A stretch of 49,970 bases of DNA from Polaromonas sp. (lineage in GTDB: Bacteria > Pseudomonadota > Gammaproteobacteria > Burkholderiales > Burkholderiaceae_C), in assembly GCA_028291905.1 (NCBI GenBank), contig JAQGNK010000108.1, forward strand, positions 1 to 49,970. Reading direction: 5' to 3'. The translations under genes were made by a program, and so were the position numbers. The notes beneath the pieces are model-generated. The model searched no databases, was not told the DNA's origin, and worked only from the letters and a program-made list of their open reading frames with translations. Positions 6,730 to 20,398 of this stretch are shown here, piece by piece; the first letter of the stretch is position 1; every line of letters starts with the position of its first letter.

Positions 6730-7902
6730 ATGAAAACTGAGTCAATCCCAGGCGCCGCCGTCACCAGCGAGAGCGAAAGCTACATCTACATTGCCTGCCC
6801 CTGGACGCCCAAGGGCGGCGGCATGTTCAAGGTGGCCGACTACCTGATTCAGGCGCAGAGCCCTTTCTCGACCAGGGCGGCCCGGTTGCGCCCGCTCGAC
6901 ACACGCGGCAGCGGCCATGCGCTGGCTTCGCTGTGGATTCTGGCCAGCGCCCTGGGCAGGCTGGTGCGCGGGCGCCTGGGCGGGCAGCTGGCCGGCGTGC
7001 ATGTCAACATGGCCGAGCGCCTGAGCCTGTTTCGCAAAAGCGCCATCGTGGTCGCTTGCCGGGCGCTGGGCATTCCGGTGGTGCTGCACCTGCATGCGGC
7101 GCAGCTGCAGCATTTCTACCGCGATCTGCCCCGGCCTCTGCAGGGCCTGACGCGCTGGGTCTTCTCGCTGCCGGCCACCTGCCTGGTGCTGGGCAGCGCG
7201 GCGCGGCAGTTCGTCACCGCCGAGCTGGGGGTGCCGCCCGAGCGGGTGGAAATCATCATCAATGGCGTTCCAGAGCCTTCCCAGCCGCGCCGCGCCGCCA
7301 GCGAAGACACCCCGCGCCAAGTGCTTTTCCTGGGCAACCTGTCGGAGCGCAAGGGGGTTTCGGACCTGCTGCAGGCGCTGGCCCGGCCGGGTTTTGACAC
7401 CGCAAGGCTTGAAGTCACGGTGGCCGGCGGCGGCGACGTGGCCACCTACCAGGCCAGCGCACGGCAGCTCGGCATTGATAGTTTTGTGCATTTTCCGGGC
7501 TGGTGCGACCAGCTTCAAGCCGCCAGGCTGATGGCGCGCGCCGATCTGCTGGTGCTGCCCTCTTATGACGAAGGCCTGCCGCTGGTGATCCTCGAAGCGC
7601 TGGCCAACGGCGTGGCTGTGGTCTGCACGCCCGTCGGTGAAATCCCGTCGGTGCTGCACGACGGCGCGACGGCCTGCTTTGTGCAGCCGGGCGATGTCAC
7701 CGGCCTGGCCGCCGGCATGCAGCGCGTGCTGGACGATCCGGCCTTCAGGCAGACACTGGAGCGCAACGGCCGGGCGCTGTATGAGCAGCAATTTTCCCTG
7801 GCGCGCTTTTTTGGCTCGGTGGCCGCCGTCCACCAGCGCCACTTCGGCACTGCGGGCCAGCCCCGCAAGGACAGCGCCGGCACACCCAAGGCAGCGCCAT
7901 GA
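6730..7902 (+). CDS. Glycosyltransferase family 4 (GT-B)
   Basis: VLFLGNLSERKGVSDLLQAL...LLVLPSYDEGLPLVILEALANGVAVVCTPVGEIPSVL. Confidence 0.93.
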   Translation: MKTESIPGAAVTSESESYIYIACPWTPKGGGMFKVADYLIQAQSPFSTRAARLRPLDTRGSGHALASLWILASALGRLVRGRLGGQLAGVHVNMAERLSLFRKSAIVVACRALGIPVVLHLHAAQLQHFYRDLPRPLQGLTRWVFSLPATCLVLGSAARQFVTAELGVPPERVEIIINGVPEPSQPRRAASEDTPRQVLFLGNLSERKGVSDLLQALARPGFDTARLEVTVAGGGDVATYQASARQLGIDSFVHFPGWCDQLQAARLMARADLLVLPSYDEGLPLVILEALANGVAVVCTPVGEIPSVLHDGATACFVQPGDVTGLAAGMQRVLDDPAFRQTLERNGRALYEQQFSLARFFGSVAAVHQRHFGTAGQPRKDSAGTPKAAP

Positions 7903-9590
7903 TTGCCCAGGCCGACAGCATTCAAAACGGCGCCCGGCTGCAGGCCGACATCTGCATCATCGGCGCCGGGCCTGCGGGCATCGCCCTCACGCTGGACCTG
8001 GCCGAGCGCGGCTTTTCGGTGCTGCTGCTGGAATCGGGCTTCATGAAGGAAGACCCGGCCACCCAGTCACTCTATGCCGGCGAGGTGGCGGACGAACACC
8101 TGCACAGTCCGCCCGACAAATACCGGCAGCGCCGGTTCGGCGGCTCGACGACCATCTGGGGCGGGCGCTGCATGCCCTTCGACCCCATCGACTTCGAGAC
8201 CCGCAGCCATGTGCCGCACAGCGGCTGGCCGCTGTCTTACCATGATCTGCTGCCTTACTACCCCCGCGCCAATGCCCTGGCCGAAGCCGGCCGGTTCAGC
8301 TACCAGGCCGAAGAGGCGCTGGGCGCCAATGCCGCGCCGCTGATCCAGGGCTTCAACAGCCAGCGCGTTCTTTCAAACGGACTGGAGCGGTTTTCCTGTC
8401 CCACTGATTTCGGCAGCCGCTATGCGCGGCAGCTGGCGCTGGCGCCTGGCGCCCGGGTGCTGCTGGGCGCCAATTGCACCGCTCTGCAGCTGAGGCCCGA
8501 TGGCAGCGCCCTGCGCTCTGTCGAAGTCACCACGCTGGCAGGGCGCCGTTTTTCAGTCGCCTCCCGCGCCACCGTGCTGGCCGCCGGCGGCCTGGAAACC
8601 GCCCGGCTGCTGCTGGCCTCGCGCGATGTCAGCCCGGCGGGCATCGGCAACTTTCACGATGTCGTGGGCCGCTACTACATGTGCCACATTGCCGGCAACG
8701 TGGGCCGGCTGACGATCAACGGGCCGACCCGCAACGTGCGCCACGGCTACGAGGTCACGCCCGAAGGCATTTACTGCCGGCGCCGGCTCGCCGTGGCGGC
8801 GGATGAACAGCACCGGCTCGGCTTGTCGAACACCGTGGCGCGGCTGCACTTTGCCCGCATCACCGATCCGGCGCACCGCAGCGGCGTGCTGTCCGGGCTT
8901 TTCCTGGCGCGCCGGCTCATCAGCTATGAATACGGCAAGCGGCTGAACGACGGCAACAAGGCAACGCCGGCAAGCTATGCCCGCCATCTGCTCAATGTGG
9001 CTGCCGATCCGCTGGACACTGCCGCCTTCCTGGCGCACTGGCTGCGCCGCCGCTCACTGGCGGAACGCAAATTCCCGTCGGTGATCCTGCGCAACCGCAC
9101 CAACCGCTTCAGCCTGGAAATGCACGGCGAGCAATTGCCGCAGGCGCAAAGCCGGGTCACGCTCAGCGACAAGGTGGACGCGCTGGGCATGCCGCAGCTG
9201 AAGGTGGACTGGCGCTACAGCCCGGTCGATATCGAGTCGATGCGCCGCACGCTCGATGTGCTGGCGGAGGAGTTCGCCCTGAGCGGCGTCGCCCGCCTCG
9301 ACTACGACCCCGAGACGCTTGAGCAGGACCTGCTGCGCTTTGGCGCTTACGGCGGCCACCATATCGGCACGGCGCGCATGGGCAGCGATCCGCGCACCAG
9401 CGTGGTCAATGCCGACTGCCAGGTGCATTCGGTGGGTAATCTTTTTGTCGCCGGCAGTGCTGTCTTTCCCACCTCCAGCCAGGCCAACCCGACGCTCACG
9501 CTCATCGCCCTGTCGCTCCGGCTGGGCCACACCCTGTCACAACGGCTGGGCAACCGCCACGCAGCCGCCATCGAGGAGGCCTTCGCATGA
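7899..9590 (+). CDS. GMC-type FAD-dependent oxidoreductase
   Basis: ADICIIGAGPAGIALTLDLAERG Rossmann motif; GGSTTIWGGRCMPF; C-terminal GAYGGHHIGTARMG...VFPTSSQANPTLTLIALSLRLG. Confidence 0.9.
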   Translation: MIAQADSIQNGARLQADICIIGAGPAGIALTLDLAERGFSVLLLESGFMKEDPATQSLYAGEVADEHLHSPPDKYRQRRFGGSTTIWGGRCMPFDPIDFETRSHVPHSGWPLSYHDLLPYYPRANALAEAGRFSYQAEEALGANAAPLIQGFNSQRVLSNGLERFSCPTDFGSRYARQLALAPGARVLLGANCTALQLRPDGSALRSVEVTTLAGRRFSVASRATVLAAGGLETARLLLASRDVSPAGIGNFHDVVGRYYMCHIAGNVGRLTINGPTRNVRHGYEVTPEGIYCRRRLAVAADEQHRLGLSNTVARLHFARITDPAHRSGVLSGLFLARRLISYEYGKRLNDGNKATPASYARHLLNVAADPLDTAAFLAHWLRRRSLAERKFPSVILRNRTNRFSLEMHGEQLPQAQSRVTLSDKVDALGMPQLKVDWRYSPVDIESMRRTLDVLAEEFALSGVARLDYDPETLEQDLLRFGAYGGHHIGTARMGSDPRTSVVNADCQVHSVGNLFVAGSAVFPTSSQANPTLTLIALSLRLGHTLSQRLGNRHAAAIEEAFA

Positions 9591-10636
9591 AAGTTCTGGT
9601 CCTGGGCGGCTCCGGCCACATCGGCAGGCGCCTGCTGGAAATCCTTGCAGCCACCGCAGCCGCCCCTTGGCAGCGCCCCACCGGCGCGTCGCGGGGGCCG
9701 GTCAAGAACGGTCCGCGAGGCGTTGACTGGCTGCAGCTGGACACCTGTGACGAAGCTGCGCTGGCCAGCGCCCTGCGCGGCTTTGATGCGGTCGTGAACT
9801 GCGTGGCGGGCAATGCGCGCTCGATTGCGGCAGGCACGCAGGTGCTGGCAAAAGCTGCACTGAAAGCCGACTGCCCGCGCATCATCCACCTGAGCACCAT
9901 GTCGGTGTATGGGCCGGTCGAGGGCACGGTGCATGAAGAGGCGCCGCTCAACCCCGGCCTGGGCTGGTATGGCCGGGCCAAGTGCGAGGCCGAACGGCAT
10001 GTCCGCCAGTTCGTGCTGCAAGGCGGCGAAGCCGTGGTGCTCAGGCCCGGCTGCGTTTTCGGCCCCGGCAGTGAACTCTGGGTGGGGCGCATCGGCCGCT
10101 GGCTGCGGGCCGGCCGGCTTGGCGACCTGGGGGCCGGCGGCGATGGCTGGTCCAACCTGGTGCATGTGGACGATGTCTGCCAGGCCATCATCGCCGCGCT
10201 GGGGTTGACGGTGATTTCCGGCGAACTGCCGGTGTTCAACCTGTCGGCACCCGACAGCCCGCGCTGGAACGCGTACTTTATCGACCTGGCGCTGGCGCTG
10301 CAGGCCACCCCGATACGGCGCATCAGCCAGCGCCAGCTCCAGCTCGACACCCGGCTGGCCGGGCCGCCGCTCAAGCTGGCGCAAATGGCCTTGAAGCGTG
10401 CCCGCTGGTCACGGCCAGGGCTGCCCGACCCTATGCCGCCCGGCCTGCCGGCCTTGTGGGCGCAGCAGATCCACCTCTATTCGGGCAAGGCAAGCCAGAA
10501 ACTGGGACTTGCCTGGACACCCTACACAGCCGGCCTGCAGAGCTCGGCCGCCTGGTTCGGCGTACCTGCAGCCGGCGCGGCTTCGGCTCCGGCATCGACT
10601 TCGGCATCACCTGGAAACACCGCATGCACGCCCTGA
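9587..10636 (+). CDS. NAD-dependent epimerase/dehydratase (extended SDR)
   Basis: MKVLVLGGSGHIGRRLLE Rossmann motif; STMSVYGP...YGRAKCEAE active-site-like Y-x3-K. Confidence 0.9.
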   Translation: MKVLVLGGSGHIGRRLLEILAATAAAPWQRPTGASRGPVKNGPRGVDWLQLDTCDEAALASALRGFDAVVNCVAGNARSIAAGTQVLAKAALKADCPRIIHLSTMSVYGPVEGTVHEEAPLNPGLGWYGRAKCEAERHVRQFVLQGGEAVVLRPGCVFGPGSELWVGRIGRWLRAGRLGDLGAGGDGWSNLVHVDDVCQAIIAALGLTVISGELPVFNLSAPDSPRWNAYFIDLALALQATPIRRISQRQLQLDTRLAGPPLKLAQMALKRARWSRPGLPDPMPPGLPALWAQQIHLYSGKASQKLGLAWTPYTAGLQSSAAWFGVPAAGAASAPASTSASPGNTACTP

Positions 10637-11214
10637 AGGCAGACGCCCATCGCATCTTTGGCCGCTTCAACTGGCCGCTGGTGCTCAAGGGCCTGCTTTT
10701 GAATCCGGCGTTCCGGGTGGTGGCGAGCGTGCGCCTGTGCCAGATGGCCCAGCGCCAGCACCCTGTGTGGCGGCGGCTGCTGCTGACGCCGGCCAGAATC
10801 TTTCATCGCCTGGCCTGCCATTCGGCAGGGATCGAGCTGCCCTGGAAAACCGCCATCGCCCCCGGGCTGGCGCTGACCCATGGCCGGGGCATCGTCGTCA
10901 ATGGCCAGGCCCGGCTTGGCCAGAATGTAACCCTGTTCCATGGCGTCACCCTCGGGCAGCGCGACTCGATAGCCAGGGACGGCAGCCGCACCACCCACTT
11001 TCCGGTGGTGGAAGATGACGTGTGGATCGGTCCGCATGCGATTGTGGTGGGCGCCACCGTCGGCAAGGGCAGCCGGATTGCCGGCGGCGCCTATGTCTTT
11101 GAAAACATCCCGCCCTATTCCATCGTGCTCGGAAATCCGGGCCGGATCGTCAAGAGCGACTGCATGCCTGATGTTGAAAACCCCTGGCGCGCGGCTGACC
11201 CAGCGCTTGATTGA
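10624..11214 (+). CDS. Serine acetyltransferase-like hexapeptide (LbH) acyltransferase
   Basis: HGRGIVVNGQARLGQNVTLFHGVTLGQR...VVEDDVWIGPHAIVVGATVGKGSRIAGGAYV; start MHALKADAHRIFGRF chosen inside longer ORF 10456. Confidence 0.85.
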   Translation: MHALKADAHRIFGRFNWPLVLKGLLLNPAFRVVASVRLCQMAQRQHPVWRRLLLTPARIFHRLACHSAGIELPWKTAIAPGLALTHGRGIVVNGQARLGQNVTLFHGVTLGQRDSIARDGSRTTHFPVVEDDVWIGPHAIVVGATVGKGSRIAGGAYVFENIPPYSIVLGNPGRIVKSDCMPDVENPWRAADPALD

Positions 11215-11443: not shown

Positions 11444-12457
11444 TCAACGGCGCTGCAGGGCCGAAGCCAGGCGCATGGCACGCATCAGGAACAGCGGATT
11501 GCCGATCACATAGCGGTGAAACAGCCGGCGCGGCTCCAGTCCCAGCCTGAACAGCCATTCCATCCCCATGCCGCGCATCCACAGCGGGGCACGCCGCGTC
11601 TTGCCGCCCAGAAAATCAATGACCGCGCCGCCGCACACGATCAGGCAGGGAAAGCCGAGCGATGCGCGCAAAATCACGGCAGTTTCTTCCTGGCGCGGCA
11701 TGCCCATGCCCAGCACGATCAGTTCCGGGCAGTGGATATTGGCCAGCGCCACGTAAGTCTGCGCATCGAGAAAGCCGTGTTCACTGATATAGCTGCTCTG
11801 GGGCGAAAACTCGCGCCCGGCAACGCGGATGCCGCGCTCCAGGTAGGGGTGTTGCGTGCCAAAAAATGCAATGCTGCGGCCATTGAACTGCCAAAGCAGT
11901 TCGGGAATCAGGTCGGTGCCGTTGAGATTGTGGCCCGGCGGCAGCCCTAGCATCCTGAACAGCCTGGCCATGCCCGAGCCGTCCCTGAGCACCACGTCGG
12001 CAGTGTGAAGGGCCTCGAAAAAAGACGCTGATTCGGCCACCGAATTCATGGCGTGCGCATTCGCAAACGCCAGTATGGAAGGCTTTTCAGGATGGCTCAG
12101 CCGCTCCAGCAGGCGCCGGCCCTCGGCAAAGGTCTGCACCCGCTCTATCTTGCCCAGCAGCACCAGCCAGCGCCGCAGCCACTCCTCGGCCACCCCCAGG
12201 GTTTTCATGGACTGAAACTGTGCCGCCAGCGCAAAGTACACATCGTCTGCCGTCAGAAGTCCAAGCGCCCTGCCGATCTCGCCGAAACGCCTGCCGCTTT
12301 CCTGCTGGACCACCATGATGCGCTCAACATTCTCAGGTGCCAGCCGGCCGGCGTTCACCAGGAGCATGCCGATGCGCTGGCGCGAACTGCTGGCGCTGGC
12401 TGCTGGCTGGCTGGCCGTCTCTTCGGTGGTCAAATTCATGCCGCCCAGCGTACCCAA
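11444..12457 (-). CDS. WecG/TagA/CpsF-family glycosyltransferase with N-terminal MshEN-like module
   Basis: VVLRDGSGMARLFRMLG...LNGTDLIPELL...LGMGMPRQE...GGAVIDFLGGKTRRAPLWMRGMGMEWLFRLGLEPRRLFHRY; N-terminal RIGMLLVNAGRLAPENVERIMVVQQ...; start could be 12439. Confidence 0.9.
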   Translation of the reverse strand: MGTLGGMNLTTEETASQPAASASSSRQRIGMLLVNAGRLAPENVERIMVVQQESGRRFGEIGRALGLLTADDVYFALAAQFQSMKTLGVAEEWLRRWLVLLGKIERVQTFAEGRRLLERLSHPEKPSILAFANAHAMNSVAESASFFEALHTADVVLRDGSGMARLFRMLGLPPGHNLNGTDLIPELLWQFNGRSIAFFGTQHPYLERGIRVAGREFSPQSSYISEHGFLDAQTYVALANIHCPELIVLGMGMPRQEETAVILRASLGFPCLIVCGGAVIDFLGGKTRRAPLWMRGMGMEWLFRLGLEPRRLFHRYVIGNPLFLMRAMRLASALQRR

Positions 12458-12466
12458 AGCGCCGCG

Positions 12467-13372
12467 CTAGGCGTCATTGAGCACCGAGCCGACCAGGGTC
12501 ACGCCAAATTCGCGCAGGCTGTGGGTGAACTGCGCCAGGTGCGGCATCGAACTCTTGCCCTGCCGCGCCACGATCAGGGCCGCGCCCGCACGAACCGCGA
12601 CCGTGTGGGCATCGGCGCAGACGGTGGCGGGCGGCGTGTCGATGATCATCACGTCGAAATCCATGCCCAGCGACAGCAGCAGCTCCGAGAAATTCTGCCG
12701 GCCCAGCAGTTCCTGCGGATTCGGCGGAATCGCTCCGGCCGAAAGCACCGACAGGTTGGGCAATGCAGCAATCCCGACCAGGGCCTCGGCGCCGGCGCGC
12801 CCGACGAGCATGTCGGACAGTCCGGCGCGCTTGCCGAGATGGAAAAGCTTGTGCTGGCGCGGCGAGCGCATGTCGGCATCTATCAGCAAGGTGCGCTCGC
12901 CAAGCTGTGAAAACACAATCGCCAGGTTGGCCGCAAGATAGCTGCGACCATCGCCGCTGTCGGCGCTGACCACAGCCAGGCCCTTGCGTTCGGCGCCGTT
13001 GTCAAACCAGCGCAGCATCAACTGGCTGCGCAGCATGCGCAATTGCTCCACCGAAGGGCTGGAGGGCTGGTAAGCGGCGACCAGCTCCCGGCTCAGGTTG
13101 CTTTCAGGCGTGATGTAGGAATAGTGAAACTGGACCGACAAGGCAAAGCGCACATCATCTTCCGTCAGCAGCCCCAGCGCACGGCCGGACTCGCCGAAAC
13201 GCAAGCCGCTTTCGCGCTGAAAACCCAGAATCCGCTCCGTGCTGCCTTGCGACAGCCGTCCGGCATCGATCAGAATCGTTCCCATCAATCGGCTGGAATT
13301 CGTGGCTAGATGCGTGCCGCCACCCCGGCTCAGGGGTACGGCTTTCACGATTTGGGCATTGTTGGTGTTCAT
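12467..13372 (-). CDS. epsG: EpsG-like chain-length determinant tyrosine kinase (BY-kinase/ParA-like) with N-terminal MshEN-like module
   Basis: SADSGDGRSYLAANLAIVFSQLGERTLLIDADMRSPRQHKLF; VMIIDTPPA; immediately downstream of EpsF-like gene. Confidence 0.88.
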   Translation of the reverse strand: MNTNNAQIVKAVPLSRGGGTHLATNSSRLMGTILIDAGRLSQGSTERILGFQRESGLRFGESGRALGLLTEDDVRFALSVQFHYSYITPESNLSRELVAAYQPSSPSVEQLRMLRSQLMLRWFDNGAERKGLAVVSADSGDGRSYLAANLAIVFSQLGERTLLIDADMRSPRQHKLFHLGKRAGLSDMLVGRAGAEALVGIAALPNLSVLSAGAIPPNPQELLGRQNFSELLLSLGMDFDVMIIDTPPATVCADAHTVAVRAGAALIVARQGKSSMPHLAQFTHSLREFGVTLVGSVLNDA

Positions 13373-14766
13373 GCGGCGCTTCCGTTGCCGAGTGCCAGTT
13401 GATGCGACCCCTGGAGCTTGCGCGGCGGCGTGCGGCCAGATGAAATACTGGCCAGCACAGGCAGGTCCAGCATCTGCACCAGGTCTTCGGTGGACCTGAC
13501 GCGGCGGTTGGCCAGCTCCAGCAGGAAGGCGCAGGCAATGCCCAGCAGGGTGCCGCCAAAAGCGGCAATCAGCAGGTTGAGCATCAGCTTCGGGCTTGAA
13601 GGATTCATCGGCGCCGTCGCCATGTCGAGGCGAACCACATTGGTCTGGTTGCTCAGGCTTTGCAGGCGGGTTTGCGACGCGCTCTGGCTGACGGTTTCGT
13701 AGGCGCGCTGGGCTGCTTCCACATCGCGCCGGTACACATTGAGTTCGTCGCGCTGCTTGTTGAGCATCAGCACCCGCGCCTTCTGCGCATTGACAGAGCC
13801 CTGCAACTCGCGCTCCCGGTCCTTGCCCACCCGGTAGGCGGTCTCAATGGAGGCTGAAATCCGGGCTGACTCGCTGACAAGCCGGCTTCTCAGCGAGGCC
13901 AGCTCGGCCTCGGCCCGCTGGCGCAGCGGATGGTTGACGCCCAGGTTCACATTGTTTTCCTGCACCTTGGATTCAAGGCGTGCAATATCGGCCTTCAGCC
14001 CATTGATGAGCGGGCTTTGCATCACCTCGGCCACAGTGTCGCCGCGCGCCGCGCGCTTGCTCTGGCTGTCGGTGGTTTCGCCCTGGACGGCGGTGAGCTG
14101 GGTCGAGATCTGCGCCAGCTTGGCAGTTTCATAGTCAACCCGCTCGTCGGTGGAAACAATGCCGGCTTTTTGCTGGTAGTCGGACAAGCGCGCCTGGGCA
14201 TCTTCGAGCTTGGCGCGCGACGTCTTGGTCTGCTCGTCGAACCATTCGGCGTATTGCCTGGCAGGCTCGGTCTTCAAGGCCAGGTTTGTGTCGAGATAAG
14301 CCTGGGCAAATGCATTGGCAACCGCCGCCACTTGATCCGGATCGGAACCCTTGTAGGTGATGTTGATGACATTGCTCTCCCTGGCCGGCTGCACCTGCAG
14401 GCCGGTTTGCAGCGACTGGGCCAGCCAGGCCTCCAGCGAGCCCCGGCCATCATTGGCTTTTTGCCAGGCCGCCTTGGCCTCCTCGTCCTCATCGAGCCTG
14501 AGCATTTTCACCACGCGCTGCGCCACCCGGTCGCCGCCGATGATGTCCACCTGCGTGGCCATATAGCTGGGGGCAACCATACCGGAAATCCCGCCGCCGG
14601 CCAGCGGATCAGGCGTGCGCATATCGACCAGCACCGAAGTCTGGGCGGTGTATTTTTTAGGCAGCAGCAAGCTCACAGCCAGTGCCGCCGCAATGGCCAG
14701 CAGCAGCACCAGAAGCGCCACCCGGTAACGGGCGCGCAGTATCAGGAAGAATTGATGGATTGACAT
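13369..14766 (-). CDS. epsF: EpsF-like chain-length determinant protein (Wzz/GumC family)
   Basis: N-terminal TM and LLLPKKYTAQTSVLVDMRTPDPLAG; central coiled coil; C-terminal TM LMLNLLIAAFGGTLLGIACAFLLEL. Confidence 0.9.
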   Translation of the reverse strand: MSIHQFFLILRARYRVALLVLLLAIAAALAVSLLLPKKYTAQTSVLVDMRTPDPLAGGGISGMVAPSYMATQVDIIGGDRVAQRVVKMLRLDEDEEAKAAWQKANDGRGSLEAWLAQSLQTGLQVQPARESNVINITYKGSDPDQVAAVANAFAQAYLDTNLALKTEPARQYAEWFDEQTKTSRAKLEDAQARLSDYQQKAGIVSTDERVDYETAKLAQISTQLTAVQGETTDSQSKRAARGDTVAEVMQSPLINGLKADIARLESKVQENNVNLGVNHPLRQRAEAELASLRSRLVSESARISASIETAYRVGKDRERELQGSVNAQKARVLMLNKQRDELNVYRRDVEAAQRAYETVSQSASQTRLQSLSNQTNVVRLDMATAPMNPSSPKLMLNLLIAAFGGTLLGIACAFLLELANRRVRSTEDLVQMLDLPVLASISSGRTPPRKLQGSHQLALGNGSAA

Positions 14767-14778
14767 GGCTGCGGCAGC

Positions 14779-15648
14779 TTAAAAAAGGCTTTCACGCACG
14801 TAGATCACATCCTCGGCCTGCACCGTATCGGTCAGCTTTGGAGTGGTTTCCGTGACATTGCCCGCTGGATCCCGCCGATGCAGGCGCAGGCGATTCTGAC
14901 TGCCGCGCACCGTAGGGCCGCCGCCTTGCGCCAGTGCCTGCATGACGGTCATGCCCCGCTCTATGCGGTAGGGCCCTGGACGCTGGGCTTCGCCATAGAT
15001 ATAGAAAACCGGTGCCTTGTTGACATACAGGGTGTCGCCACCGGACAGGACAATGTCCTCATCCGACTTCTGGTTCAGGAAAAGCGCTGGAATATCGATC
15101 ACCTTGCGAAATGGCTGGCCCTGGCGCTGCCCGGTCACGATCAAAACGTCGTCGCCAATGGCAGTGGTGCCGCCCGCCGCAGCCAGCATGTCGCTGACGC
15201 GGGTGTTGAAGGTTTCCAGCGGAAAGCGGCCCGGACGGCTGACCTGGCCCAGCACCGCCACCTGGCTGCCGCGAACCTGCCGAAGCACGATGTTGACCTG
15301 CGGCACCTTGACAAACCCGCCGGTGCGCAGCGCATCGGCGATTTTTTTCTCGGCTTCTGAAATCGTCAACCCGCCAAGCTGCACGGTGCCCACCAGCGGA
15401 TAGCTGATGACGCCGGTTTCGGATACCCGCGCATCGACTGAAAGATCAGGACTTTGGTAAACCTGCACCCCGATGGAGTCGCCTGCGCCGAGCCGGTAAT
15501 CCTGCTGCGTCGGCAGGGCCGCAGCCTGCGTCGCTGGCGCCTGTCGGGAAGCTGCGGCTGCGGAAGGTGGAGTCGCCTGCGCAAAAGCTGTCGCAGCCCC
15601 AAGGAAAAGGCATGCGGCGGCAAGGTAGCGAGTTAAAAATTTCATCAT
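14779..15648 (-). CDS. epsE: EpsE-like polysaccharide export protein (Wza/SLBB family)
   Basis: YRLGAGDSIGVQVYQSPDLSVDARVSETGVISYPLVGTVQLGGLTISEAEKKIADAL; signal peptide. Confidence 0.9.
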   Translation of the reverse strand: MMKFLTRYLAAACLFLGAATAFAQATPPSAAAASRQAPATQAAALPTQQDYRLGAGDSIGVQVYQSPDLSVDARVSETGVISYPLVGTVQLGGLTISEAEKKIADALRTGGFVKVPQVNIVLRQVRGSQVAVLGQVSRPGRFPLETFNTRVSDMLAAAGGTTAIGDDVLIVTGQRQGQPFRKVIDIPALFLNQKSDEDIVLSGGDTLYVNKAPVFYIYGEAQRPGPYRIERGMTVMQALAQGGGPTVRGSQNRLRLHRRDPAGNVTETTPKLTDTVQAEDVIYVRESLF

Positions 15649-15914: not shown

Positions 15915-16727
15915 CTATATTTTTTTAAGTAGCTGTGAATACATCCAGAATAGTTTTCTTTGCCATTGGGTAGCGGCCCGTTTTCGGCAGGTCGCCAGAA
16001 AATGCTTCAGGCCTGCCCATTTCATCCAGGGTTTGTCGGCACCCACAAAGTGAACCACGCGGATCAGCTTGGAAGCATTAACATTCGAAGCAGGCAGCTG
16101 ATAGCCATGCTTCCCAATATAATCATCAAGATGCGTGCAGAACAGGTTATATCCCTGGTCGAGATGAAGATGCCCTGCATCCGGCCATTCAGAATAATAA
16201 GCATTGATCAGGTCCTGATCGCCAAGCCGGTCGATTTCTGCGGCAGAAGCCTGCCTGATGGCAGGCTCCAGCATGGCGGCGATCTTTTCCGGAAGCCCGT
16301 GCTCGGGCTCAATTACCATCAGGCCCGAATTAAGACGCTTCCAGTCAGGGTAAATCAGTCGGCCAGCAGCTACCGCTGACATATGCGGCTTTTCAAACAG
16401 CGCATCTATGTTGGCCAACAGGATCATGTCGCTGTCAAGGTAAACCAGCTTGTTAAAACTGACCAGCCCGAAGAGGTGCAGCTTGTCAAATGTATTGCGC
16501 CAGTGGCCTGACGCCTTGCTCAGGGAAACTGGTATTTTTATACTCGCAGGCAACCTGACGACCTGCAGCCCTTTTTTCTGCAGATCGGCATCAACATGCA
16601 AAGGAATACCTGCAGATATGCCGACCCACAATGGATATGAAGAATCCACCTGCTTCAACGATTCATGCAGCACCAGGACACCGGGCAGGTAGCTCATGGT
16701 ACTCAGCAAAGTAACATAGGCTCGCAT
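15915..16727 (-). CDS. Glycosyltransferase family 8 (glycogenin-like)
   Basis: KLHLFGLVSFNKLVYLDSDMILLANIDALFE (DxD); LNSGLMVIEP; GDQDLINAYY; VVHFVGADKPW. Confidence 0.88.
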   Translation of the reverse strand: MRAYVTLLSTMSYLPGVLVLHESLKQVDSSYPLWVGISAGIPLHVDADLQKKGLQVVRLPASIKIPVSLSKASGHWRNTFDKLHLFGLVSFNKLVYLDSDMILLANIDALFEKPHMSAVAAGRLIYPDWKRLNSGLMVIEPEHGLPEKIAAMLEPAIRQASAAEIDRLGDQDLINAYYSEWPDAGHLHLDQGYNLFCTHLDDYIGKHGYQLPASNVNASKLIRVVHFVGADKPWMKWAGLKHFLATCRKRAATQWQRKLFWMYSQLLKKI

Positions 16728-16800: not shown

Positions 16801-18000
16801 TTAAAAGCTGGCAAGAACCGACAGATTTACAAGATTACTTTTGTAGTCAAAGCCAGGCTGGTTGGAACTGCGCCTGTCGTGCTGCATCGCCAACGTAAGC
16901 TGGATGGCACGGCTCGCCTGCCATTCAAGCGCGACGCTTCCCAGGTTGAGCTTGTCGCGCCGGTCAATCGGGGCAACACCGGGCAACGGGCCTTTATAGT
17001 CTCGGCTGCCGTGGACATAGCGAAGTTTCACAGCCGTTTTCGCAGTTGGTTTCCAGGTGGGTGCAATAAAGAACCGGTAACCCTCGTAATAGCTGGCCGA
17101 AGTGGTCTGGTAACTGTTCAATTCGCGCCCTACGCCAGCCGTGACACTGGTTTTGCCCGTCGCCTGCCAAGTGGCGTTGACATTACCCAAAAACCCTGAG
17201 AAATCCCGTGCCGCAAGCCCCTCATGGGCTCTGTCGAAATAGGAAATTCTTGACTGAATTGTTGTTTTTCCCGTCACTGGCCAGTCAAGCCTGAACTCAT
17301 GCTCGCGGTCCTTGAAATCGCTCGCAAACAGGGAAGAAGCCTGTCTGCCGGGATAACTGCCGCTGCCATGCTTGAGGCGATAGGCAAGCGAAGTGCGCGA
17401 CGGAAAAACATACCGAACACCCCCTTCAACACCTTGGACCTCGGAGTCGCCTTCAAATGTGAAGGCCTGGCTGCTGCTGCTTTTGCGCTCGAATACGCCG
17501 GCCACCGCACGCCACGGTCCGCCGACTTCATATTCGAGATCAAACAGGTTCGAGCGGTCGGTCCGTCGGTTGACCTGGCCCAGGTTTTGAATATCGGCAG
17601 TATTGTCAACATACTCTTGCCGGTCTGCTGTCAAGTTGCCATGCAACGCCGGCGTCAAGCTCCAGCGCCAGGCAGCCGCATAATTTACAGCGGTAAAGTC
17701 CAGACTAGAAAACCGTTTATAGCTGTAGCGGTCAGCGGTGATGTCCAGCTCAATGCGCTGCAAACTATATGACTTGTCTATTTTTGCACCAACGGTTGTC
17801 ACACCAATCGTGTCAGATCGGCTCGATGTTCCCAGCAGGGCGGCGGTATTGGCTGATTCAGATAAGCGGAACACATTGCTGTCGTGCTGCACGCTTTGCC
17901 CAACCTTGAATTGCAGCGTATCCAGTTCATCGGCATGCGCATCAACGGATATCAAGCCCGCCACTGCCAGCTGGACTATTAACAATTTACGCGACAGCAT
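16801..18000 (-). CDS. epsL: EpsL-like outer-membrane beta-barrel protein of EPS biosynthesis
   Basis: Signal peptide, then FKVGQSVQHDSNVFRLSESAN and amphipathic beta-strand pattern ending in LVNLSVLASF. Confidence 0.8.
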   Translation of the reverse strand: MLSRKLLIVQLAVAGLISVDAHADELDTLQFKVGQSVQHDSNVFRLSESANTAALLGTSSRSDTIGVTTVGAKIDKSYSLQRIELDITADRYSYKRFSSLDFTAVNYAAAWRWSLTPALHGNLTADRQEYVDNTADIQNLGQVNRRTDRSNLFDLEYEVGGPWRAVAGVFERKSSSSQAFTFEGDSEVQGVEGGVRYVFPSRTSLAYRLKHGSGSYPGRQASSLFASDFKDREHEFRLDWPVTGKTTIQSRISYFDRAHEGLAARDFSGFLGNVNATWQATGKTSVTAGVGRELNSYQTTSASYYEGYRFFIAPTWKPTAKTAVKLRYVHGSRDYKGPLPGVAPIDRRDKLNLGSVALEWQASRAIQLTLAMQHDRRSSNQPGFDYKSNLVNLSVLASF

Positions 18001-18189: not shown

Positions 18190-19617
18190 TCAGTAAGCCG
18201 CACTGTCCCTGAAAACCAGTCGCACTGTTTTCAGGATAATGAATATATCCAGCTGCAGCGACCAGTTGCGCAAGTAATCCAGGTCCAGATCAATACGTGC
18301 CTGCATTTTTTCCAGGGTATCGGTTTCACCGCGCTGGCCATTGACCTGCGCCCATCCGGTAATACCTGGCCTGACCTTGTGCCTGACCATATAACCCTTG
18401 ATGAGCGTCCTGTACATTTCATTATGCGCAACTGCATGCGGCCTTGGACCCACAACACTCATGCGGCCCTGCAATACATTGATGAATTGCGGCAACTCGT
18501 CCAATGAGGTCTTGCGCAGAAAAGCGCCAATTCGTGTGACGCGCAAATCATTCCTGCGGGCCTGTTGAATGACTTCACCATTTTCCGTCACTGCCATCGA
18601 CCGGAATTTATATACCACGATGTGCTCGCCGTCGAGGCCATACCGGTGCTGCCTGAAAATCGCGGGCCCAGGCGAGTCCAATTTCACCATGATGGTGATG
18701 ATCACCATGACAGGAAAAACCAGTGCAAGGACAAGCAAGGCAAGCACAATATCGCTAAGTCGTTTCAATGCACCGTTAAAGCCCCTGAATGGCGTGTCGC
18801 AAACCGATATCACGGTGACACCGCACACCGAGTCGGTGCGGGCCTGAACCAAGTCAGTGATAAACATATCCGGAACAAAATAAACAGAAGCGGTGGTGTC
18901 CTTCAGTTCATCGAGAATCTGCAGGATTCGCGGCCGGGCGATCATGGGCAGAGACAGGTAAATAAACTGGATGCGGTGCTGCTTGACATAAGCCACCAGC
19001 TCGTCTATTTTTCCAAGCAGCCGGTGTTCACCCTGCCCTCTTCTGCGCTCACCGTTGCGGTCATCAAAAAACCCCAGCAGGTCAATGTCGGAATAAATCG
19101 AACCCATGATATTTCGGGCCAGCGATACGCCCTGGTTATTCATACCGACAATCACGGCGCCCCGCGGAATGCCCTTGAGCTTCAATAGCCATGGGGTTGC
19201 AGCGCGAAACGCCAGCCCGCCACCGATCTGGGCAAGCGGTGCAATCCAGAGCCAGTTAATGATGACGGCGACTGGAAATCTTTGGAGGTATTGCGTCGCA
19301 TAACCCACCAGCATCAGCAGGCCGGCAATCCATATCCAGTGAAAGAGAATACTGAAAATCATCCGTTCCACTGAAAATCGAAGCCGCGAGCTAGCCGGGA
19401 ATGTCAATGAGAAAACAATGACCGAAAGTATGAGATAGGGCGGGCGCACCGCACCTTCAAAATAGAGCGCCACGGCCCACAGCGAAAACACCAGAATCAA
19501 AGGATCGAGCGCGCTCTCTATAACTCTGAAAATATTGCTTTTACTCAATCCGATGAAACCTGACTCGCTGTTTTGCCGCCAAACTGCGGCAGACTGCATG
19601 TCATCGATTTCAGCCAT
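18190..19617 (-). CDS. Undecaprenyl-phosphate glucose phosphotransferase (polyprenyl glycosylphosphotransferase)
   Basis: FRQHRYGLDGEHIVVYKFRSM...RVTRIGAFLRKTSLDELPQFINVLQGRMSVVGPRPHA...RPGITGWAQVNGQRGET; N-terminal TM helices; start ATG overlaps stop of upstream regulator. Confidence 0.93.
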   Translation of the reverse strand: MAEIDDMQSAAVWRQNSESGFIGLSKSNIFRVIESALDPLILVFSLWAVALYFEGAVRPPYLILSVIVFSLTFPASSRLRFSVERMIFSILFHWIWIAGLLMLVGYATQYLQRFPVAVIINWLWIAPLAQIGGGLAFRAATPWLLKLKGIPRGAVIVGMNNQGVSLARNIMGSIYSDIDLLGFFDDRNGERRRGQGEHRLLGKIDELVAYVKQHRIQFIYLSLPMIARPRILQILDELKDTTASVYFVPDMFITDLVQARTDSVCGVTVISVCDTPFRGFNGALKRLSDIVLALLVLALVFPVMVIITIMVKLDSPGPAIFRQHRYGLDGEHIVVYKFRSMAVTENGEVIQQARRNDLRVTRIGAFLRKTSLDELPQFINVLQGRMSVVGPRPHAVAHNEMYRTLIKGYMVRHKVRPGITGWAQVNGQRGETDTLEKMQARIDLDLDYLRNWSLQLDIFIILKTVRLVFRDSAAY

Positions 19618-20398
19618 TGAATATGACTCCATTGATCTTGGAAACTGCCTGGGCACGGTTAAAAACATTGAGCTTCTGAAAAATGCGCTGCATGTGGTTT
19701 TTAACGGTGAAGCCGCTGATATTCAAGATGCTTCCGATTTCGGAGTTGGTCTTGCCCATGGCTACCCAGTCCATGATCTGGATTTCACGTTCGCTCAAAC
19801 CGAACGCTTCTTCATGGGCAGTCCGCAAGGGCTTTGGCGATGGTTTTTTCTGTTGCGGCAGATGCGTGACCTGGCGCAGGGCGCTGTCAATAAAAGGCAT
19901 GAGCACTTTGATGGCCGTGCTGGCCGGCTCTTCAGGAATAGGCTGGGTGCTGAGCATGACATAAAGGCATTCATACTGGCCCCGCTCATCGCACATGCCA
20001 TGAATCAGCACCGAACGCATGCGGCGCAAGGCGCTGGTGAATGAACCCGGCAAGCTGGTATTGCCGAGCAAGTATTCAAACCGGCAGAAGTCGAGCCGTA
20101 TCGGTTTCTTTCCGCCTGAAATCCAGCAGTCGTAAAACTTTCCCAGGAGGAAGGGAAGACTGTCCGTACCCACCGCATAAGACCGCACGCCTGGCAGTTT
20201 TGAGAGAATATCGTGGTGAATCACGCCCTCCGGGAAGTTGCCCCAGCCCACCAGCAATATCTCATGTGGAAGATAATGCTGAATATCATTTTGTAACCAT
20301 TGAAGCAATTCGAAATGTCTTCTGACGATGCTAATTCCTTCAATCAGCTTTAAATAGTGTCCTGTACCTTCGGTCAATGGTATTGAGTGAGCATGCAT
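19610..20398 (-). CDS. epsA: EpsA-like LuxR-family transcriptional regulator
   Basis: C-terminal LSEREIQIMDWVAMGKTNSEIGSILNISGFTVKNHMQRIFQKLNVFNRAQAV; directly upstream of EPS sugar transferase. Confidence 0.85.
   Translation of the reverse strand: MHAHSIPLTEGTGHYLKLIEGISIVRRHFELLQWLQNDIQHYLPHEILLVGWGNFPEGVIHHDILSKLPGVRSYAVGTDSLPFLLGKFYDCWISGGKKPIRLDFCRFEYLLGNTSLPGSFTSALRRMRSVLIHGMCDERGQYECLYVMLSTQPIPEEPASTAIKVLMPFIDSALRQVTHLPQQKKPSPKPLRTAHEEAFGLSEREIQIMDWVAMGKTNSEIGSILNISGFTVKNHMQRIFQKLNVFNRAQAVSKINGVIFNG

Follow-up and report, generated by a model that had tools for sequence, protein, structure and literature searches.

A stretch of Polaromonas sp. DNA (contig JAQGNK010000108.1; its whole 49,970 nucleotides are called the window below) carries two genes, wecG and epsG, whose products, a glycosyltransferase and a chain-length protein, start with much the same sequence. 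The question raised by this locus is whether the common N-terminal module is a c-di-GMP receptor of the MshEN type, and whether it could bring the transferase under the control of that signal. Both genes are on the minus strand, a detail omitted from the earlier note, which correctly described them as adjacent; the wecG ATG is 27 nt past the epsG stop codon, and an alternative TTG start at 12457 is the start in the mechanical ORF call. The relevant features, in window positions, are these.

7899..11214, plus strand: GMC oxidoreductase, SDR/epimerase and hexapeptide acyltransferase, a convergent syntenic flank
11444..12439, minus strand: MshEN-WecG fusion gene, an ORF of 331 aa from the first ATG
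11447..12184, minus strand: WecG/TagA/CpsF (GT26) glycosyltransferase domain with C-terminal helical appendage (PF03808, TagA alignment, AlphaFold2, Foldseek)
12218..12376, minus strand: MshEN-like module of WecG, 53 residues (residues 22-74; NF053729 positions 1-53, whole-genome search, AlphaFold2, Foldseek)
12467..13372, minus strand: epsG, chain-length determinant BY-kinase-like protein, 301 aa (TIGR03029)
13130..13288, minus strand: MshEN-like module of EpsG, 53 residues (residues 29-81; NF053729, motif register)
13369..14766, minus strand: epsF, membrane chain-length determinant, Wzz/GNVR (TIGR03017, 585.6 bits)
14779..15648, minus strand: epsE, outer-membrane polysaccharide export, Poly_export/SLBB (TIGR03028, 363.3 bits)
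15915..16727, minus strand: family 8 glycosyltransferase, GT8 (PF01501)
16801..18000, minus strand: epsL, XrtB/PEP-CTERM-associated EPS outer-membrane protein (TIGR03014, 391.5 bits)
18190..19668, minus strand: WcaJ-type undecaprenyl-phosphate glucose phosphotransferase, for the first sugar (TIGR03023, 486.9 bits against a cut-off of 410.75)
19610..20398, minus strand: LuxR-type regulator, overlapping the wcaJ start (PF00196)

The operon order is thus WcaJ, EpsL, GT8, EpsE, EpsF, EpsG, WecG. The gene order of the cluster is common to many relatives, the nearest loci being mostly from Polaromonas, and the GMC oxidoreductase, SDR and acyltransferase genes flank wecG in the same order in many Polaromonas relatives. 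The GT8 gene between epsL and epsE is also found in P. glacialis-type relatives (L076, L082 and L092) and is absent from most others, and a LuxR-type gene lies at the same place by the wcaJ start in some relatives. The product of 12467-13372 is a full member of the EpsG family (TIGR03029, 359.4 bits against an equivalog cut-off of 313.8), with EpsF and EpsE encoded alongside. We note that arginine stands in place of the Walker A lysine (GDGRS or GEGRS) in nearly all EpsG orthologues read, in the window and in the loci compared, and that EpsG lacks the C-terminal tyrosine cluster of BY-kinases; 'tyrosine kinase' may therefore misname its activity.

The N-termini of WecG and EpsG align without gaps, with 35 of 61 residues identical (57 %, pairwise E-value 5e-23), a likeness far above chance that bears out what the earlier note had claimed. 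The MshEN motif was taken as (R/K/L)LGxx(LVI)(LVI)xxG(LVI)(LVI)xxxxLxxxLxxQ, in two 24-residue copies with a 5-residue spacer; over this motif 32 of 53 residues are common to the two modules, and the register of 24 + 5 + 24 residues is exact in both, the layout in WecG being RIGMLLVNAGRLAPENVERIMVVQ + 5 + RFGEIGRALGLLTADDVYFALAAQ. NF053729, the NCBIfam model for MshE-related c-di-GMP domains, matches the WecG module over its positions 1-53 (E-value 5.5e-8, 32.5-36.2 bits) and also the EpsG module (E-value 2.3e-5, 24.1-27.5 bits), in both cases with significant E-values although the bit scores are under the curated cut-off of 38, and it finds 31 of the 32 modules gathered from relatives, the WecG module among them. 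The module was not reported by Pfam, where T2SSE_N gave no match even at E-values of 1-10. The WecG module also matches positions 3-60 of the EpsG model TIGR03029 (E-value 2.5e-14).

In MshE the contacts with c-di-GMP are made by R9, L10, G11, L25, L29 and Q32 of the first motif and R38, L39, G40, L54, L58 and Q61 of the second (PMC5013675). The residues at these positions are R, I, G, V, M, Q and R, F, G, V, L, Q in WecG, and L, M, G, T, L, Q and R, F, G, V, L, Q in the EpsG of the window. The four motif glycines and two glutamines are kept in both modules, and the ligand-contacting glycines and glutamines vary little or not at all across most EpsG modules, while the hydrophobic contact leucines of WecG are replaced conservatively (by I, V, M, F and V) at several positions. 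The doubled RxG pattern that had been ascribed to both proteins is found in WecG (RIG and RFG), where both guanine-stacking arginines are kept, but it fails in the first motif of EpsG, which reads LMG in register with the arginine one residue upstream, and has threonine at the L25 position; in register, the first arginine is absent from every EpsG module tabulated. Leucine in place of this arginine is tolerated in PilF GSPII-B (PMC11731258). The C-terminal subdomain of MshEN is missing here; since the 62-residue MshEN_N of MshE, isolated from its C-subdomain, still binds c-di-GMP at 0.35 uM (PMC5013675), that absence need be no obstacle and a module as short as this could suffice.

The predicted structure agrees with this assignment. 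AlphaFold2 folds the WecG module alone as a four-helix bundle, with a pLDDT of about 87-93 in the core, and Foldseek superposes it on MshE with c-di-GMP (5htl) at 1.0 A over 55 residues and on the PilF GSPII-B c-di-GMP complexes (8pdk and 8pfa) at 1.0 A over 52-53 residues. The best 16 matches are all N-domains of MshE, PilF or PilB, none with an E-value below 0.001, as the chain is short. By this model the WecG module has the four-helix MshEN_N fold, and the MshEN-like character proposed in the earlier note is upheld by both profile and structure. The model was made of the WecG module alone, and for EpsG it is the sequence that makes the same fold probable and the N-terminal module look like a c-di-GMP receptor.

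A quite different role for the module would be that of a docking domain, tethering WecG at the export machine through EpsG or the EpsF/EpsG platform, with ligand binding weak or absent. The N-domains of GspE and PilB also bind proteins, the Foldseek matches include the N-domain of Xanthomonas PilB bound to PilZ, wecG and epsG are encoded side by side, and the departures of EpsG at the first arginine and L25 positions also speak for such a function. Docking alone does not, however, predict that WecG should be nearer to the ligand-binding consensus than EpsG is, nor does it sit well with the near-invariance of the four glycines and two glutamines that contact the ligand in most EpsG modules, and no evidence of contact between WecG and EpsG was found. 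We regard docking as unlikely, if worth keeping in mind, and favour ligand binding.

The WecG/TagA/CpsF family includes teichoic acid and holdfast enzymes, and the remainder of the fusion protein is, as had been supposed, a WecG/TagA-type (GT26) transferase; its active site is intact. It matches PF03808 (E-value 1.2e-35), its AlphaFold2 model has a pLDDT mostly above 90, and Foldseek aligns it with TagA at a TM-score of 0.82 (of target). The TagA alignment shows that the catalytic aspartate (DGSG), the GMPRQE motif and the C-terminal arginines are kept; in TagA the C-terminal arginines complete the active site (PMC6493773). In the full-length model the pLDDT of the module falls to about 63-71, which we attribute to an alignment in which no other sequences cover the module; mixed alignments of module fragments and transferase sequences were misaligned and were left out of folding. 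The geometry by which module and transferase are coupled is consequently a guess.

The two fusions differ greatly in distribution. Chain-length proteins of the EpsG type occur widely in Betaproteobacteria, the EpsG orthologues examined in Comamonadaceae carry the module, which is also built into TIGR03029, and EPS biosynthesis in Methylobacillus was named among MshEN systems by Wang et al. (2016; PMC5013675), so that the EpsG half of the earlier note's claim was already known. That paper hinted at a c-di-GMP receptor role for the EpsG module, and no direct test of EpsG as a receptor was found in the literature searched. The EpsG half is thus ordinary, whereas the WecG half is new to this survey, which covered 151 family, 87 genus, 369 class and 399 phylum genomes together with GTDB contigs: a single fused MshEN-WecG protein was found, the window's own copy, and no match in the wider samples spans both module and transferase. 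A motif scan of ORFs in 193 loci (191 with a WecG ORF) likewise found both parts together only in loci cut from the window's contig, and the possibility that the WecG fusion is common is rejected. Borderline matches running from module into transferase (G261, G029, G033, G196 and two Azospirillaceae loci) proved to be either EpsG or a WecG with a stop or unrelated sequence in front of it. About 35 of the 87 Polaromonas genomes have a WecG orthologue at the same locus without the module, the protein starting near DWRxRW. Since the fused form occurs in one genome only, it offers no conservation by which selection could be shown.

The space ahead of wecG has acquired other things elsewhere. A VanZ-like membrane domain and WecG share one ORF in six freshwater Comamonadaceae bins (L078:5611-6738, L080, L081, L084, L093 and L099), and in some Polaromonas an opposite-strand VanZ-like gene lies between epsG and wecG. 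The epsG-wecG gap is variable, and the position ahead of wecG seems to take up additions readily.

Being confined to one genome, the fusion might be suspected of being a chimera of metagenome assembly, absent from the organism itself, the more so as the genome is a fragmented bin of 579 contigs (82.8 % complete, 5.07 % contamination). This we consider very improbable, as the genes on either side follow the order seen in the relatives, the joint is in frame and starts 27 nt past the end of epsG, and the module copies no other sequence in the genome or its relatives, the best of which have 56-60 % identity.

The origin of the WecG module can be traced in part. In a tree of modules it lies among those of Polaromonas-type EpsG, split at 100/100 from Ramlibacter and Caenimonas, its placement there being unresolved and its branch long (0.97). 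The EpsG module of the window clusters with those of P. glacialis-type EpsG (97/96) and the WecG module does not; that, with only 68 % identity between the motif DNAs, leads us to reject a recent copy of the genome's own epsG. Pairing of the two modules is neither favoured nor rejected (AU p 0.385), which leaves room for a duplication of greater age and fast change since, and the strong divergence of the WecG module means that it is neither a recent copy nor an obvious assembly artefact. On the simplest account, WecG acquired the module from an EpsG-type gene at an earlier time, and the sequence then diverged rapidly.

The long branch could also mean relaxed constraint, and the module might then be a decaying or neutral passenger, left by chance duplication of the start of epsG and of no regulatory effect. 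Occurrence in one genome is compatible with this, as is the codon comparison with EpsG, in which 39, 40 and 29 of 53 are identical at positions 1, 2 and 3 (pairwise) and constraint is only moderate. Random decay, though, would not be expected to spare the key glycines, glutamines and arginines, including a first arginine that EpsG lacks, and the frame has stayed open in exact 53-residue register, with NF053729 scoring WecG above EpsG (32.5 against 24.1 bits). A passenger thus appears improbable, and a functional receptor module is the reading that we prefer.

Our main reading, to which we give a probability of about 60 %, is that a lineage-specific MshEN-WecG fusion puts a TagA-type transferase under c-di-GMP control alongside EpsG. 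We infer that WecG in this Polaromonas lineage gained an N-terminal MshEN_N receptor module of the kind carried by its neighbour EpsG, and that c-di-GMP would be bound between the two 24-residue motifs. A very short link (about 10 residues) joins the last module helix to the first transferase helix, and through it ligand binding may shift WecG between inactive and membrane-active states, most likely switching it on. TagA-type enzymes pass between an inactive dimer and a membrane-active monomer (PMC6493773), HfsJ of the WecG/TagA family is a post-translational control point for holdfast, an adhesive polysaccharide, and the target of the inhibitor HfiA (PMC3900383), and NfrB is a glycosyltransferase activated by c-di-GMP through an MshEN domain (PMC8669469); these together are why activation is taken as the most likely sign. 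WcaJ would make the lipid-linked primer to which WecG would add the second sugar, and the same c-di-GMP would act on EpsG and thereby on chain length and export, which suggests that two steps in the making of slime (EPS) could answer to one signal. Against this reading, the conservative leucine substitutions may affect the predicted site, and the profile score is below its cut-off.

The signal itself is plausibly made, since the same genome encodes a PAS-GGDEF-EAL protein whose GGDEF motif is intact. This was the single GGDEF match in the genome search, and as the bin is incomplete the number of such proteins carries no inference. The gene (L195, G000:C80, 2-1969) is overlapped by 37 nt by wecB (UDP-GlcNAc 2-epimerase, 1933-2994), both on the minus strand, and at least six further Polaromonas genomes have the two genes next to each other. 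The GGDEF-EAL gene was considered as a dedicated partner of the fused WecG and set aside, the same linkage being found in Polaromonas without this WecG.

A more far-reaching proposal, for which we put the chances slightly short of even, is that a lineage-specific transfer of a domain within one operon has placed sugar addition and chain-length control under the same c-di-GMP receptor module, with direct allosteric control of a WecG/TagA-family enzyme. The fusion amounts to a natural experiment, in which a second enzyme of one pathway has received the same module. If WecG binds c-di-GMP it would be, to our knowledge, the first WecG/TagA/CpsF enzyme to be switched directly by this ligand.

Among known systems, the MshEN/GSPII domains of Vibrio cholerae MshE and Thermus PilF GSPII-B share with the WecG module the two 24-residue motifs, the 5-residue spacer, the ligand-site glycines and glutamines and the four-helix bundle, the fold matching to about 1.0 A. 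They differ in being attached to a traffic ATPase rather than a GT26 enzyme, and the WecG module lacks the C-terminal subdomain, has partly I, V, M or F as its hydrophobic residues and scores below the curated threshold. EpsG (TIGR03029, a methanolan-type chain-length protein) has only the module in common with WecG and not its kinase-like domain. TagA/TarA, WecG and HfsJ (GT26) have the same catalytic domain as the window WecG, with its aspartate, GMPRQE motif and C-terminal arginines, and none of the other WecG/TagA/CpsF members examined has an MshEN module; HfsJ is a regulated control point, but through the separate inhibitor protein HfiA. E. coli NfrB (GT2-MshEN) likewise joins a secreted-glycan glycosyltransferase and MshEN on one chain, and ManNAc chemistry is implicated in both families. 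NfrB is a membrane-embedded processive GT2 enzyme with transmembrane helices and a C-terminal MshEN, whereas the WecG described here is a monotopic GT26 enzyme with an N-terminal MshEN_N, encoded in a Wzx/Wzy-type (EpsEFG) cluster; it is not of the NfrB type, but it may work like NfrB.
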